Source: an uncultured Prevotella sp. (GTDB taxonomy: Bacteria > Bacteroidota > Bacteroidia > Bacteroidales > Bacteroidaceae). Taken from it: DNA of 64,000 nucleotides. Under the pieces are notes generated by a model. The model was not told where the DNA came from. It did no database searches and saw only the letters and a program-made list of their open reading frames with translations. The stretch is taken from contig CAMCBZ010000007.1 of NCBI GenBank assembly GCA_945873145.1, forward strand, positions 31,354 to 95,353, given 5' to 3'. The position numbers and the translations under genes were made by a program. Of the stretch, positions 7,659 through 51,117 are shown piece after piece; the first letter of the stretch is position 1, and each line of letters begins with the position of its first letter.

Positions 7659-7763
7659 CTATAGGAGGCATAGAATCTATAGAGGCATAGAATCTATAGA
7701 GGCTATAGAATCTATAGAGACTATAGAATCTATAGAGACTATAGAAAATATAGGAATCATAGA
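7659..7763. repeat. Tandem repeat, ~17-18 bp unit CTATAGAATCTATAGAGA
   Basis: About 5-6 consecutive copies read directly (gcatagaatctatagag x2, then [g/a]ctatagaatctatagag, then degenerate). Confidence 0.9.
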
Positions 7764-7808
7764 AAAAGAAACAGAGGATAGAGTCGTTGGATTCTATCCT
7801 CTTTTTCT
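7762..7808. terminator. Bidirectional hairpin terminator between TonB receptor and FecCD permease
   Basis: AGAGGATAGA...TCTATCCTCT stem flanked by A-rich and T-rich tracts, between convergent genes. Confidence 0.7.
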
Positions 7809-15141: not shown

Positions 15142-16011
15142 TCATCCAAGATATTGGGTGAGTATCTTGGCGTAAGGACTATGTCTGATTTTCTCAATCG
15201 CCTTTTCGCGTATCTGACGCACCCGCTCGCGGGTGAGTCCCAATCGCTCACCGGTTTCCTCGAGCCCTTCCTCTTGACATCCAATGCCGAAGCTACGCGT
15301 AATCACCTCTTGCTCACGTGGTTTCAATACTTTCTTAAAGATGCTCTCTAAGTCGATGCGCATCGATTCGCGGTTGGTGATATTCGACACCGTATGGTCG
15401 GATGAAGGCAATAGATCAGCCAGGCTGTTGCTATCGTCTTCGTTGAATGGTGCGTCGATGCTCATGTGCCGCGTGTCAGCCGTCAGGGCGTCTTGTATCT
15501 TATTGCTGTCGATGTCGGTGAGAGCACTTAGCTCTTCTGTGGACGGCTTGCGGTGGTTGGTCTGTTCAAACTTCTCTATCTCCTGGTTGATCTTCGAGAT
15601 CGCTCCCACTTGGTTGAGTGGTAGTCTGATCATTCTGCTCTGTTCGGCGATGGCCTGCAAAATGCTCTGACGGATCCACCATACTGCGTAGGATATGAAT
15701 TTGAAGCCTCGTGTAGGATCGAACTTCTCAGCCGCCTTGACCAGTCCAATGTTGCCCTCGTCGATGAGGTCGGACAGTGGAAGTCCCTTGTGCTGATATT
15801 GCTTGGCAACGGACACGACGAAGCGCAGGTTGGCACGGATGAGTTTGTCCTTGGCACGCTCACCCTCGCGTCCTCCTTTCTGTATCTTCATGGCCAGCTC
15901 TTCCTCCTCGTCGATGTCGGCCATCGGAATGCGGCCTATCTCCAAGAGGTATTTGTCGAGTGACTCATTCTGCCGGTTGGTGATGCTACGTTCAATCTTT
16001 AACTGTCTCAT
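15142..16011 (-). CDS. RpoD-type sigma-70 factor (paralog 1)
   Basis: [29 protein letters not shown]...[56 protein letters not shown]...[20 protein letters not shown]. Confidence 0.95.
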
Positions 16012-16099: not shown

Positions 16100-16398
16100 T
16101 TTGTTGGATAAAGTGACATTTTTGCGGCCAAATACAGGCGTTCTTTTGAAACGACACCCATCTTGCTCCGATTTTTGCGAATTTCAGCTCGTTTTTGTAA
16201 ATCTCTAATAACCAATAAGATACAAATATGGAACTGTTTTCGACTAATCAGAAAGGTACTTTGGCGAAAAATTTTCTAGAGAATTTCTCGTCAAAGTACC
16301 TTTTTCATAGGGTCAGAAAGGCTTTCTGACATGGTCAGAAACGGTTTCTGATAGGGTCATCAAACGTTTCTGTTAGTGTCATCACGCCTTTTTGATCG
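16100..16398 (-). repeat. Composite intergenic element, copy 1 (22-bp palindromic tandem units plus conserved flank)
   Basis: Consecutive 22-mers from 16245: TAATCAGAAAGGTACTTTGGCG / AAAAATTTTCTAGAGAATTTCT / CGTCAAAGTACCTTTTTCATAG / GGTCAGAAAGGCTTTCTGACAT / GGTCAGAAACGGTTTCTGATAG / GGTCATCAAACGTTTCTGTTAG / TGTCATCACGCCTTTTTGATCG; flank 16100-16200 resembles 44744-44845 in reverse orientation. Confidence 0.8.
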
Positions 16399-16735
16399 GG
16401 CCAACTCATAATTTTGGTTTGTTCATCTCGCTTTTCCCCATTTTCGTTTCTCTAGATTGAAAGTTCACGCGGACCTACTTTTGTAATATTTTCTACAAGG
16501 TCTATAAGTTTTAAGCACCTTTCGCCCAATAGATGCCCAGTGATGATCATTTGCTGAAGAAAGAAGCGTTTTAACAGAATAATTAGTGGCAGACCTTCAT
16601 ATTTCTTATTCTTCTGACGCAGATTTCGATTATTTTTTGTAAGTTTGCCAAAGAAATGGCGATGTCTATGAACTTTTAGTTGGATCATGCATTGCTATTG
16701 TCGAGTATTATTTACTAAATACCAATAACAAGTAT

Positions 16736-19377: not shown

Positions 19378-20613
19378 ATGAAAAGGATTAAAATCAGCAA
19401 AGTCTGGATATTGGTCGCCATCGTTGTCGTGCTGGCCGTGGTGGCTTTCCTCTTATCCGGCAACAAAAAGAAAGAGCAGGTGCAGTTCAACACCGCCGAG
19501 GTGGCTCCTGACAACATTGTGAACACGGTGACGGCTACGGGTACAATAGAGCCGGTGACTTCCGTCACGGTGGGTACTCAGGTGTCGGGTATCGTCAGCA
19601 AGCTCTATGTCGACTACAACAGTGTGGTGAAGAAAGGACAGGTCATCGCTGAACTCGACAAGTCAAACCTGATCAGTGAACTGAACTCAGCGAAGGCAAA
19701 CCTCGAACAGGCCAAGGCTTCACTGGCAAGCGCAGAGAGCAGTCTGAGCTATCAGGCTGCCAACTTCCGCCGCAACAAGACGCTCTATCAGAAGGGACTC
19801 ATCTCGGGCAATGACTACGAGAGCGCCCGTCTGAGCTATCAGACGGCGATGGCCAGTGTGTCCTCTGCACGCGACCAGGTGTCGGCAGCCCGTGAGCAAG
19901 TGGAAAAAGCGCAGACCAACCTGGGCTACGCCACGATCACCTCGCCAATCGACGGTATCGTGCTCTCGAAGAGCGTGGAGGAAGGGCAGACGGTGGCCGC
20001 CAGCTTCAGTACGCCTACGCTGTTCACCATTGCCAAGGACTTGACCAATATGCAGGTGGTGGCCGATGTTGATGAGGCCGACATCGGCAACGTGAAGGTG
20101 GGAGAGCGCGTGACGTTTACCGTGGATGCTTATCCCGACAACACTTTCTCCGGTACGGTCAAGCAGGTGCGACAGGAAGCCACAACCACCAACAATGTGG
20201 TGACTTACTCTGTCGTGATCAGTGCGCCGAATGCCGACTTGAAGCTGAAACCGGGACTGACGGCTACGGTCACCATCTATACTCAGGAGAACAAGGGTGT
20301 GCTCAGCGTGCCCAGCAAGGCACTCCGCTTCACACCCGAGAAAGAGACTGTTGGCGGCATGAAGATCAAAGACATCGCCAACGCCAAGAACAAGGTTTGG
20401 ACGATTGAGGGCAACACTGTGGTGGCTCATCGTGTCAATATTGGTATGACAGACGGTTCGCATACTCAGATACTTAGTGGCATCCGTCGTGGAGCTAAGG
20501 TCATCACGGGCATCAGTTCCGCTACGCCCGATGATGACAGCAGTGACGACGCGGCTTCTTCCGGCGAGTCCAGTCCGTTTGCACCAAAAGGACCGGGAAG
20601 CAAGAAGAAATGA
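19378..20613 (+). CDS. MacA-like periplasmic adaptor (HlyD family)
   Basis: N-terminal TM, VTATGTIEPVTSVTVGTQVSGIVSKLYVDYNSVVKKGQVIAELD, coiled coil, LKPGLTATVTI. Confidence 0.93.
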   Translation: MKRIKISKVWILVAIVVVLAVVAFLLSGNKKKEQVQFNTAEVAPDNIVNTVTATGTIEPVTSVTVGTQVSGIVSKLYVDYNSVVKKGQVIAELDKSNLISELNSAKANLEQAKASLASAESSLSYQAANFRRNKTLYQKGLISGNDYESARLSYQTAMASVSSARDQVSAAREQVEKAQTNLGYATITSPIDGIVLSKSVEEGQTVAASFSTPTLFTIAKDLTNMQVVADVDEADIGNVKVGERVTFTVDAYPDNTFSGTVKQVRQEATTTNNVVTYSVVISAPNADLKLKPGLTATVTIYTQENKGVLSVPSKALRFTPEKETVGGMKIKDIANAKNKVWTIEGNTVVAHRVNIGMTDGSHTQILSGIRRGAKVITGISSATPDDDSSDDAASSGESSPFAPKGPGSKKK

Positions 20614-20730
20614 TGAGTGTTGAATGATGAATGTTGAGTGTTGAATGATGAATGGAAACAATATTGAGTGTTCAATGTTGAATGTTGAATAGGAGCAATG
20701 TTGAATGCTCAATGTTGAAGGATGATTGAT
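20612..20730 (+). repeat. ATGA/TTGA-rich degenerate repeat between macA-like and macB ATPase genes
   Basis: atgatgagtgttgaatgatgaatgttgagtgttgaatgatgaatgg... starting at the macA stop codon. Confidence 0.75.
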
Positions 20731-43772: not shown

Positions 43773-44426
43773 ATGAAAGATTCAGTGATTATTGTCAGTG
43801 GTGGCATGGACTCCATCACGATGCTTTATGAGTTCAAGGACCGCATTGCCCTTGGCATTTCCTTTGACTATGGCAGCAACCACAATGCGCGCGAGATACC
43901 CTTTGCGGAAATGCATTGCAAGCGGTTGGGCATTCCCCATATCACCATTCCTTTGGACTTCATGCCGAAGTATTTCAAGTCGAGTCTGCTTGAGGGTGCG
44001 GATGCCATCCCGGAAGGCAACTACGACGAGGAGAATATGAAGTCTACAGTGGTGCCATTCCGCAATGGCATCATGCTCAGCATTGCCGCAGGCATCGCAG
44101 AGAGCCATCAACTCAAATACGTGATGATGGCCAACCACAGCGGTGATCACACCATCTATCCCGACTGCCGTCCTGAGTTTGTAGAGGCTTTCTCACATGC
44201 TACCAAAGCCGGTACGTATGTGGGTGTGGAGATTTGGGCTCCTTACACCAACATCACGAAGGCTGACATCGCCCGTCATGGCAAGGCGCTGGGCATTGAC
44301 TACAGTGAGACGTGGAGCTGTTATAAAGGTGGAGAAAAGCACTGTGGCAAGTGTGGAACCTGCCGCGAACGCAAGGAAGCGCTCAAAGAGGCTGGTATCG
44401 AAGACACCACAGAGTATGAAGATTAG
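43773..44426 (+). CDS. queC: 7-cyano-7-deazaguanine synthase
   Basis: VIIVSGGMDSITMLYEF PP-loop; ETWSCYKGGEKHCGKCGTCRERKEALKEAGI zinc motif. Confidence 0.95.
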   Translation: MKDSVIIVSGGMDSITMLYEFKDRIALGISFDYGSNHNAREIPFAEMHCKRLGIPHITIPLDFMPKYFKSSLLEGADAIPEGNYDEENMKSTVVPFRNGIMLSIAAGIAESHQLKYVMMANHSGDHTIYPDCRPEFVEAFSHATKAGTYVGVEIWAPYTNITKADIARHGKALGIDYSETWSCYKGGEKHCGKCGTCRERKEALKEAGIEDTTEYED

Positions 44427-44471
44427 GTTATTTGGCGTAGCCTCGATACATGTTTTTTTCTTAACAAAAGT

Positions 44472-44519
44472 CTGTTCGCTGCAACTCACAATCTAGAGAG
44501 CAGCGAACAGGCTTTTTTA
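44472..44519 (+). terminator. Terminator after queC
   Basis: CTGTTCGCTGC...GCAGCGAACAG GCTTTTTT. Confidence 0.9.
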
Positions 44520-44593
44520 TTTGTGAAGCAGCAAAAAGGAGACTCTTTCATCGATTTTTGCCTGATGAGAGTCTCATCTCAGTGAATTTACTT

Positions 44594-44845
44594 GGTCATC
44601 TTGGCGTTTTTTAGCGGTCAAAAAGGTAAGATGACGTGATCATCTCGCCTTTCTGACCGAAAATTCTCTAGAGAATTTTCGGTCAGAAAGGCACTTTGAT
44701 AAGAGTGAAAAAGTGCGTATTTTATAACGTGCTGATTGTCAGAACTTTGTAAAATGGCTCAAATTTCGCAAAATTTCGGCCAACTCTACTTTTATTTTCA
44801 ACGAGCGCCTTCTCGTGGCCCGATTTTTGTCAGTTTATCGGACAG
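44594..44845 (+). repeat. Composite intergenic element, copy 2 (22-bp units, perfect 46-bp palindrome, conserved flank)
   Basis: 22-mers GGTCATCTTGGCGTTTTTTAGC / GGTCAAAAAGGTAAGATGACGT / GATCATCTCGCCTTTCTGACCG / AAAATTCTCTAGAGAATTTTCG / GTCAGAAAGGCACTTTGATAAG; perfect palindrome 44647-44692 checked base by base. Confidence 0.8.
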
Positions 44846-44854
44846 TTATGTTTT

Positions 44855-45325
44855 TTATAACTGATCGAAGGACAATGGCAGCAGATCGTGGATGCTGCTG
44901 ACCCGATAATACTTTTCTTTGCCACAAAGCAGGATTTCTACAGGCTTGTGATAGCGCTGTTCCATCTGCAGGATCACTTGCCGGCACGATCCGCAGGGTG
45001 TCACGGGTTCCTCGGTCTGCTCTTCTCCGTTTCTCGCTGCAATGGCAAGGATGCGGATGGGCTGGTCGGGATATTGCGACTGGGCTGAGAAGATGCAGGC
45101 ACGCTCACCACAGAGTCCTGACGGAAATGCTGCATTTTCCTGGTTGGCACCTATGACGGTGATGCCATTCTCCAAGAGTACGGCCGCACCAACATGGAAA
45201 TGACTGTATGGTGCAAACGAGTGATAAGAGGCTTGCAGGGCGCGGTCGGTCAACTGCTGCTCCTCTGTTGTCAGTTCCGACTTGGAGCAGACGTCGATAT
45301 TGATATTGAAGTTGAGGTGTTCCAT
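44855..45325 (-). CDS. cdd: Cytidine deaminase
   Basis: YSHFHVGAAVLLENGITVIGANQENAAFPSGLCGERACIFSA...PCGSCRQVI. Confidence 0.95.
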   Translation of the reverse strand: MEHLNFNINIDVCSKSELTTEEQQLTDRALQASYHSFAPYSHFHVGAAVLLENGITVIGANQENAAFPSGLCGERACIFSAQSQYPDQPIRILAIAARNGEEQTEEPVTPCGSCRQVILQMEQRYHKPVEILLCGKEKYYRVSSIHDLLPLSFDQL

Positions 45326-51069: not shown

Positions 51070-51117
51070 ATCCATAAAAAAAGGCCGACACAATTGTGTC
51101 GGCCTTTTTTTATGGAT
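51070..51117. terminator. Perfect 48-bp palindromic bidirectional terminator
   Basis: ATCCATAAAAAAAGGCCGACACAATTGTGTCGGCCTTTTTTTATGGAT between convergent genes. Confidence 0.93.

Follow-up and report, generated by a model that had tools for sequence, protein, structure and literature searches.

The element between queC and cdd

The window analyzed here, a stretch of 64,000 nucleotides (G000:C7:31354-95353), belongs to a draft genome of an uncultured Prevotella sp. from the rumen (Hallella/Prevotella; 3.09 Mb, assembly 93.5% complete). On the basis of QueC, the closest relatives that bear a name are uncultured Prevotella RUG318, Hallella mizrahii and Prevotella UBA7764. Two copies of a non-coding element with 22-bp tandem repeats are found in this window (Table 1): copy 1, the end 1 of which lies upstream of a sigma-70 gene, and copy 2, situated, as had been predicted, between the convergent genes queC (+) and cdd (-), the latter encoding cytidine deaminase. 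The limits of copy 2 were set by alignment of 26 end-1 and 25 end-2 sequences. The original prediction of a dispersed element of 250-300 bp at positions 44594-44845 was right about dispersal but not about size, with about 130 bp on the queC side having been missed.

The perfect 46-bp palindrome of copy 2 is borne out by the sequence, and is one of only two perfect palindromes of at least 18 bp in the window (the other, a perfect 48-bp palindrome behind a gene at 51070-51117 with AAAAAAAGGCCGACACAATTGTGTCGGCCTTTTTTT inside, looks like an ordinary bidirectional terminator). The words of the adjoining array include GTCAGAAAGGC and GTCATCTCGCC. The homology between copies 1 and 2 that had been proposed outside the core extends over both flanking parts, which align far above shuffled controls (leader, 102 of 150 positions identical, z = 7.2; tail, 103 of 162, z = 4.9).

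Table 1. Coordinates of the two element copies and of the neighboring genes in the window.
Feature	Position	Strand	Remarks
Sigma-70 gene	15142-16011	minus	end 1 of copy 1 lies upstream
Copy 1, whole element	16101-16484	plus	384 bp
Copy 1, core	16272-16283	none	TTTTCTAGAGAA, one change versus consensus
Copy 1, tandem repeat	16300-16381		period 22 (TRF)
queC (PF06508)	43773-44426	plus	flanks copy 2
Copy 2, whole element	44464-44845	minus	382 bp, running from end 1 (44845) to end 2 (44464)
Copy 2, end 2	44464-44500	minus	CTCTAGATTGTGAGTTGCAGCGAACAGACTTTTGT
Hairpin between A and T runs	44466-44520	none	overlaps end 2 of copy 2
Copy 2, array	44550-44646	minus	22-bp units, each of 11-bp half-units; boundary with tail approximate
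Copy 2, perfect 46-bp palindrome	44647-44692	none	invariant center AAATTCTCTAGAGAATTT
Copy 2, leader	44693-44821	minus	CTGACAATCAG then GTTAT; family form CTGATWATCAG; from copy alignment
Copy 2, end 1	44822-44845	minus	CTGTCCGATAAA + CTGACAAAAATC
Cytidine deaminase, cdd (PF00383)	44855-45325	minus	flanks copy 2

Family architecture and length

A genome search with positions 44580-44850 returned roughly a hundred matching segments spread over dozens of locations, the core pattern is matched 64 times (both strands) compared with 14 times for a reversed control, and at least 41 copies, every one of them between genes, could be delimited end to end. Neither of the two outcomes looked at as counting against a dispersed family, a lack of further copies or an alignment at the level of shuffles, came about. 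The order of parts is end 1, a leader with CTGATAATCAG, in most cases a palindromic core (AAATTCTCTAGAGAATTT), the 22-bp array and end 2. The consensus of end 1 is TTGTYGRRWAAA followed by (C/G)TGACA, that is, TTGTYGRRWAAA-CTGACAAAA, with a TGT present without exception (26 of 26 copies) and a sharp onset of conservation from random sequence outside, while that of end 2 is CTCTAGATTG...TTTTGT, beyond which some ten bases are weakly conserved. The inverted pair at the element ends is short, at only about 8 bp (CTGACAAAA/TTTTGTC), and the clearer likeness between the two ends is a direct, degenerate repeat, TTGTYRRNWAAA; within one element, the likeness of the two copies of this direct repeat is not above chance.

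The distance from the core to CTGACA is constant at 158-161 bp in most copies and is otherwise 182 or 236-237 bp, corresponding to a shift of one unit or of three and a half, and about a dozen copies have an array and no core. The core arms are complementary at 11.7 of 15 positions versus 9.9 in shuffles (maximum 10.9 of 2000), and nine pairs are changed on both sides (RNAalifold); the 46-bp palindrome of copy 2 is the best-paired case of this general feature.

The delimited copies are 351-417 bp long, with lengths that follow 384 +/- n x 11 bp (362, 373, 384, 395, 406, 417; Rayleigh R = 0.86 at period 11, n = 66). The 22-bp unit spacing noted at the outset is real: in the autocorrelation for 41 copies, the maximum lies at lag 22 (0.46, with 0.43 at lag 44 and a baseline of 0.26). 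Because the lengths change in steps of 11 bp despite this period of 22 bp, the 11-bp half-unit is the natural building block of the array. A reading of each unit as a hairpin, prompted by a single conspicuous compensatory change that distinguishes the copy at queC in the window from that in H. mizrahii, was rejected (stem complementarity 3.27 versus 3.05 of 7 in shuffles, 79 units); with the stems at shuffle level, the units resemble words taken from a limited vocabulary.

The genes on either side of the copies are tandem at 22, convergent at 10 and divergent at 6 of 38 sites, and since their orientation is so mixed, the copies do not form a set of operators, in keeping with the original view that copy 2 belongs to a dispersed element and is no plain promoter operator. 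It is accordingly quite improbable that the copies are operator or promoter elements of a regulon, or RNA genes, even though end 2 contains, in some copies, TACTTTTG, which is close to the Bacteroidetes -7 box, and the hairpin at end 2 of copy 2 (RNA fold -27.7 kcal/mol; z = -6.1 versus mononucleotide shuffles) appears terminator-like for queC and, judged from its fold, could end transcription of that gene. Ten of the 38 sites lie between convergent genes and not upstream, a hairpin as strong as this is found in only 3 of 40 copies, Rfam contains no match to the element, and the unit stems, as described above, do not differ from shuffles.

Copies in related species

Related species contain dozens of copies each. 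The sequence model R1, built on leader and core and also picking up the leader of the element in relatives, has 71 matches in RUG318, 115 in H. mizrahii and 111 in UBA7764, counts that are upper bounds as the palindrome is matched on both strands; core pattern sites number 29, 40 and 28, respectively, with none for the reversed control. Weaker R1 matches are found within the same genus (32 in G002, 27 in G012, 18 in G014 and 17 in G016), where nhmmer confirms the homology of the leader (E down to 1e-13), and genomes of other families give at most one marginal match each. The copies of G012 and G014 consist of a leader with CTGATWATCAG plus an array, and those of G014 additionally have an end like end 2 (CTCTAGATTGCAACTTTCAGACGAGCG). 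The array period peaks at 22 or at its double, 44, in G012, G014, G002, G016 and G061 (the figures for G002 and G016 deriving from two copies each), and the frequent array 8-mers of the window genome are not common to G012, G014 or G061. Leader, architecture and the 22-bp period are thus kept in other species, and the unit sequences differ.

In G061, which represents another genus, the motif TTTN3AAN4YTGATWATCAR occurs 108 times, and the ten sites inspected adjoin 22-bp arrays; these copies are alike in period and motif, with no significant sequence similarity to the element by nhmmer. Counts of this motif alone were rejected as evidence of the family, the inspected sites of G124 mostly belonging to an IS, and a recurrent 23-mer in other genera is likewise something other than this element. 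The IS-like repeat of G124 (L366-L371) has an end containing TTTGATAAATGATTGATAATCAAG, which resembles the leader motif of the element. RUG318 also harbors a second array family (L244, L247, L271), whose units, again of 22 bp, resemble GTTGAAACTGTGTTCTCGTGGG and are accompanied by a long palindrome, GATCGTTTGCT..AGCGAACGATTG; this second family adjoins or sits inside copies of the first.

The element was not found in plasmids and phages. The core occurs in four viral contigs. Three have this element, at least one of them at a locus also present as bacterial chromosome, and the fourth has other repeats around the core. In the viral contig collection, L325 has a pair of AAATTCTCTAGAGAATTT palindromes next to 11-bp repeats (GCCTACACAAA) but lacks the remaining parts of the element.

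Conservation, gain and loss at orthologous sites

Comparison of flanks indicates that many copies have been inherited at the same site across species, and such copies may differ by 22 bp. In a set of 17 orthologous pairs, chosen partly by a model score that favors conserved cores, identity amounts to 270 of 272 positions in the 16-bp core, 97% in end 1, 90% in end 2, 82% in the leader and 75% in the array with the tail. Pairs chosen by flank only have a core identical at 80 of 80 positions (two loci only), 88% identity in end 1, 83% in end 2 and 76-78% in the rest. The constancy of the core would be maintained either by selection or by gene conversion.

No precise empty site was detected with 18 joined-flank constructs for three relatives or with 4 for the reverse direction, the constructs instead giving orthologous copies, replaced interiors or rearranged flanks. 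Between queC and cdd, where an empty site in relatives had been suggested, the RUG318 gap is without the element, yet it is not a clean empty site. In H. mizrahii and UBA7764 (G031, G032), a decayed end 2 alone remains at one site (L209), which we read as a probable loss of the element, and at another (L086) the element is absent and the neighborhood rearranged. At a third site (L206), RUG318 has the same outermost ends with the interior replaced by another 22-bp array. With no clean empty site found, mobility of the element is only inferred, from sharp boundaries at unrelated sites, and the many copies common to species at the same site leave recent movement apparently unsupported.

The same comparisons bear on the possibility, which we regard as open to considerable doubt, that the copies are chromosomal sites owned by the host, with arrays bound cooperatively by a nucleoid or chromosome-organizing protein and maintained by selection, their dispersal being ancient and the elements now immobile. 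The far greater conservation of core and ends than of array or leader in same-site copies would be expected of such sites, as would a period fixed at 22 bp though the words change and a step of 11 bp, equal to one helical turn. However, two sharp conserved ends are expected of a mobile element and not of a binding site, and both the coreless copies and the loci where relatives lack or have replaced the element are at odds with this explanation.

Possible mobilizing enzymes and described elements

No transposase was found for the element, which has no room for one and no coding capacity. A classical MITE of a DDE transposase, with terminal inverted repeats and target duplications, would be consistent with the size, the copy number, the absence of an ORF, the short inverted pair at the ends and a build analogous to that of BrickBuilt, for which such an origin with IS5 relatives has been proposed (PMC4596501), but is unlikely on three counts. 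There is no target-site duplication signal above chance in 66 copies, although old insertions could have lost their duplications; in the genome (assembly 93.5% complete), end 1 was found on no IS and on no other kind of element, 41 of 43 pattern matches being element copies and two unrelated; and the ends differ from the IS5-type GAGACCTTTGCA of BrickBuilt (PMC4596501). The direct motif shared by both ends would, at a guess, fit a recombinase with loose target choice. Read as the attachment sites of a tyrosine-recombinase cassette, the two copies of this degenerate motif are, as noted above, no closer to each other within one element than expected by chance; recombinase genes of that type are common, and the ends point to no particular one.

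The suggested association with REP/BIME and TnpA(REP) did not hold up, and mobilization of a REP/BIME-like element by a RAYT has hardly any credibility here. In G000, the distance between one copy (L083, on contig C4) and a Y1_Tnp gene is about 500 bp, and a core copy is also near the orthologous gene in G032; however, the Y1_Tnp gene has palindromes of its own behind it (CCCCAAGTCG..., GTCCCTGAAAGGGAC), no Y1_Tnp match was found in G012 or G061, two genomes of 99% completeness with many elements of this kind, and the element is about ten times the length of a REP. Intergenic palindromic repeats in many copies are common to both systems, whereas a 382-bp element with leader, array and two ends, and with no RAYT link, is unlike REP/BIME. 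The RAYT-type gene itself (L377, G000:C4:91768-92115; L376) is followed by several different palindromes (CCCCAAGTCGTCGAGC, GTCCCTGAAAGGGAC, GACCTCGAAGAGGTC), and the block of gene and palindromes is duplicated in a relative.

Compared by description, the closest described kind of element is BrickBuilt of Porphyromonas gingivalis, which has 23-nt units, ends (GAGACCTTTGCA) related to IS5 and about 20 copies (Klein et al., 2015; PMC4596501). Like BrickBuilt, the present family is non-coding, intergenic and dispersed, with a leader, a spacerless tandem array and a tail, and its repeat number varies at a locus; in contrast, its period is 22 and its lengths change by 11, its ends are TTGTYGRRWAAA-CTGACAAAA and TTTTGTC, and it has a conserved palindromic CTAG core, of which there is no mention for BrickBuilt in the parts of that account drawn on here (PMC4596501). 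In size class, copy number and lack of coding capacity it resembles MITEPgRS (41-nt units; PMC4596501), MITE464 and other bacterial MITEs, falling within their range of 50-1000 bp with many copies and no transposase, but it differs from them in that neither an autonomous counterpart nor a target duplication was found. No description of such an element in Prevotella or Hallella was found in open-access full text.

A probable MITE-like family with a minisatellite

The ends of the element are defined, its sites are numerous, unrelated and intergenic, its length is quantised and leaves no room for a transposase, its palindromic core covaries, and core and ends are constant in same-site copies. The family is probably a non-coding, non-autonomous, MITE-like interspersed family of Hallella and relatives, each copy of which carries a minisatellite. 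Copies of this MITE-like family may have been spread by an enzyme acting in trans on both ends, which share the degenerate direct repeat TTGTYRRNWAAA and carry the short inverted pair. Given its invariant two-fold core and its helical phasing, the element is probably a protein-binding site, with the core as a two-fold symmetric putative site and the 11-bp half-units, each of about one helical turn, placing further sites on one face of the helix. Array units would be gained or lost through slippage or recombination, and after insertion copies would be inherited for long periods, during which gene conversion, if ongoing, could also keep the cores alike. A few copies may have become useful to their neighbors, the hairpin end behind queC possibly being one of these.

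A pattern in which core and ends are nearly unchanged while the 22-bp repeats are rewritten between species was not found described for this group in open-access full text, minisatellite-bearing elements as such being known for Porphyromonas. Considerably more tentative is the proposal that the constant architecture and period, combined with genome-wide replacement of the unit sequence between species, mark a satellite-like class in Prevotellaceae, in which dozens of dispersed arrays would be homogenized and a binding protein would co-evolve with them. Elements comparable to the minisatellite-bearing ones of Porphyromonas are thus abundant in a genus of the gut and rumen; their repeats turn over, yet their core is invariant and their period fixed. 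They provide a system for asking what keeps a period but not a sequence constant, by what means these elements move, and whether they live as parasites or have been taken over as sites of the chromosome.

The element explains unannotated intergenic repeats in these genomes. Other repeats noted include a dispersed palindromic repeat, CACCCCCGTACCCCTCTCCAAGGGGAGAGGG, which is very common in G030-G032, and two further tandem repeats in the window, at 7659-7764 and 20609-20725 (18-bp CTATAGAGGCTATAGAAT and a 37-bp unit).
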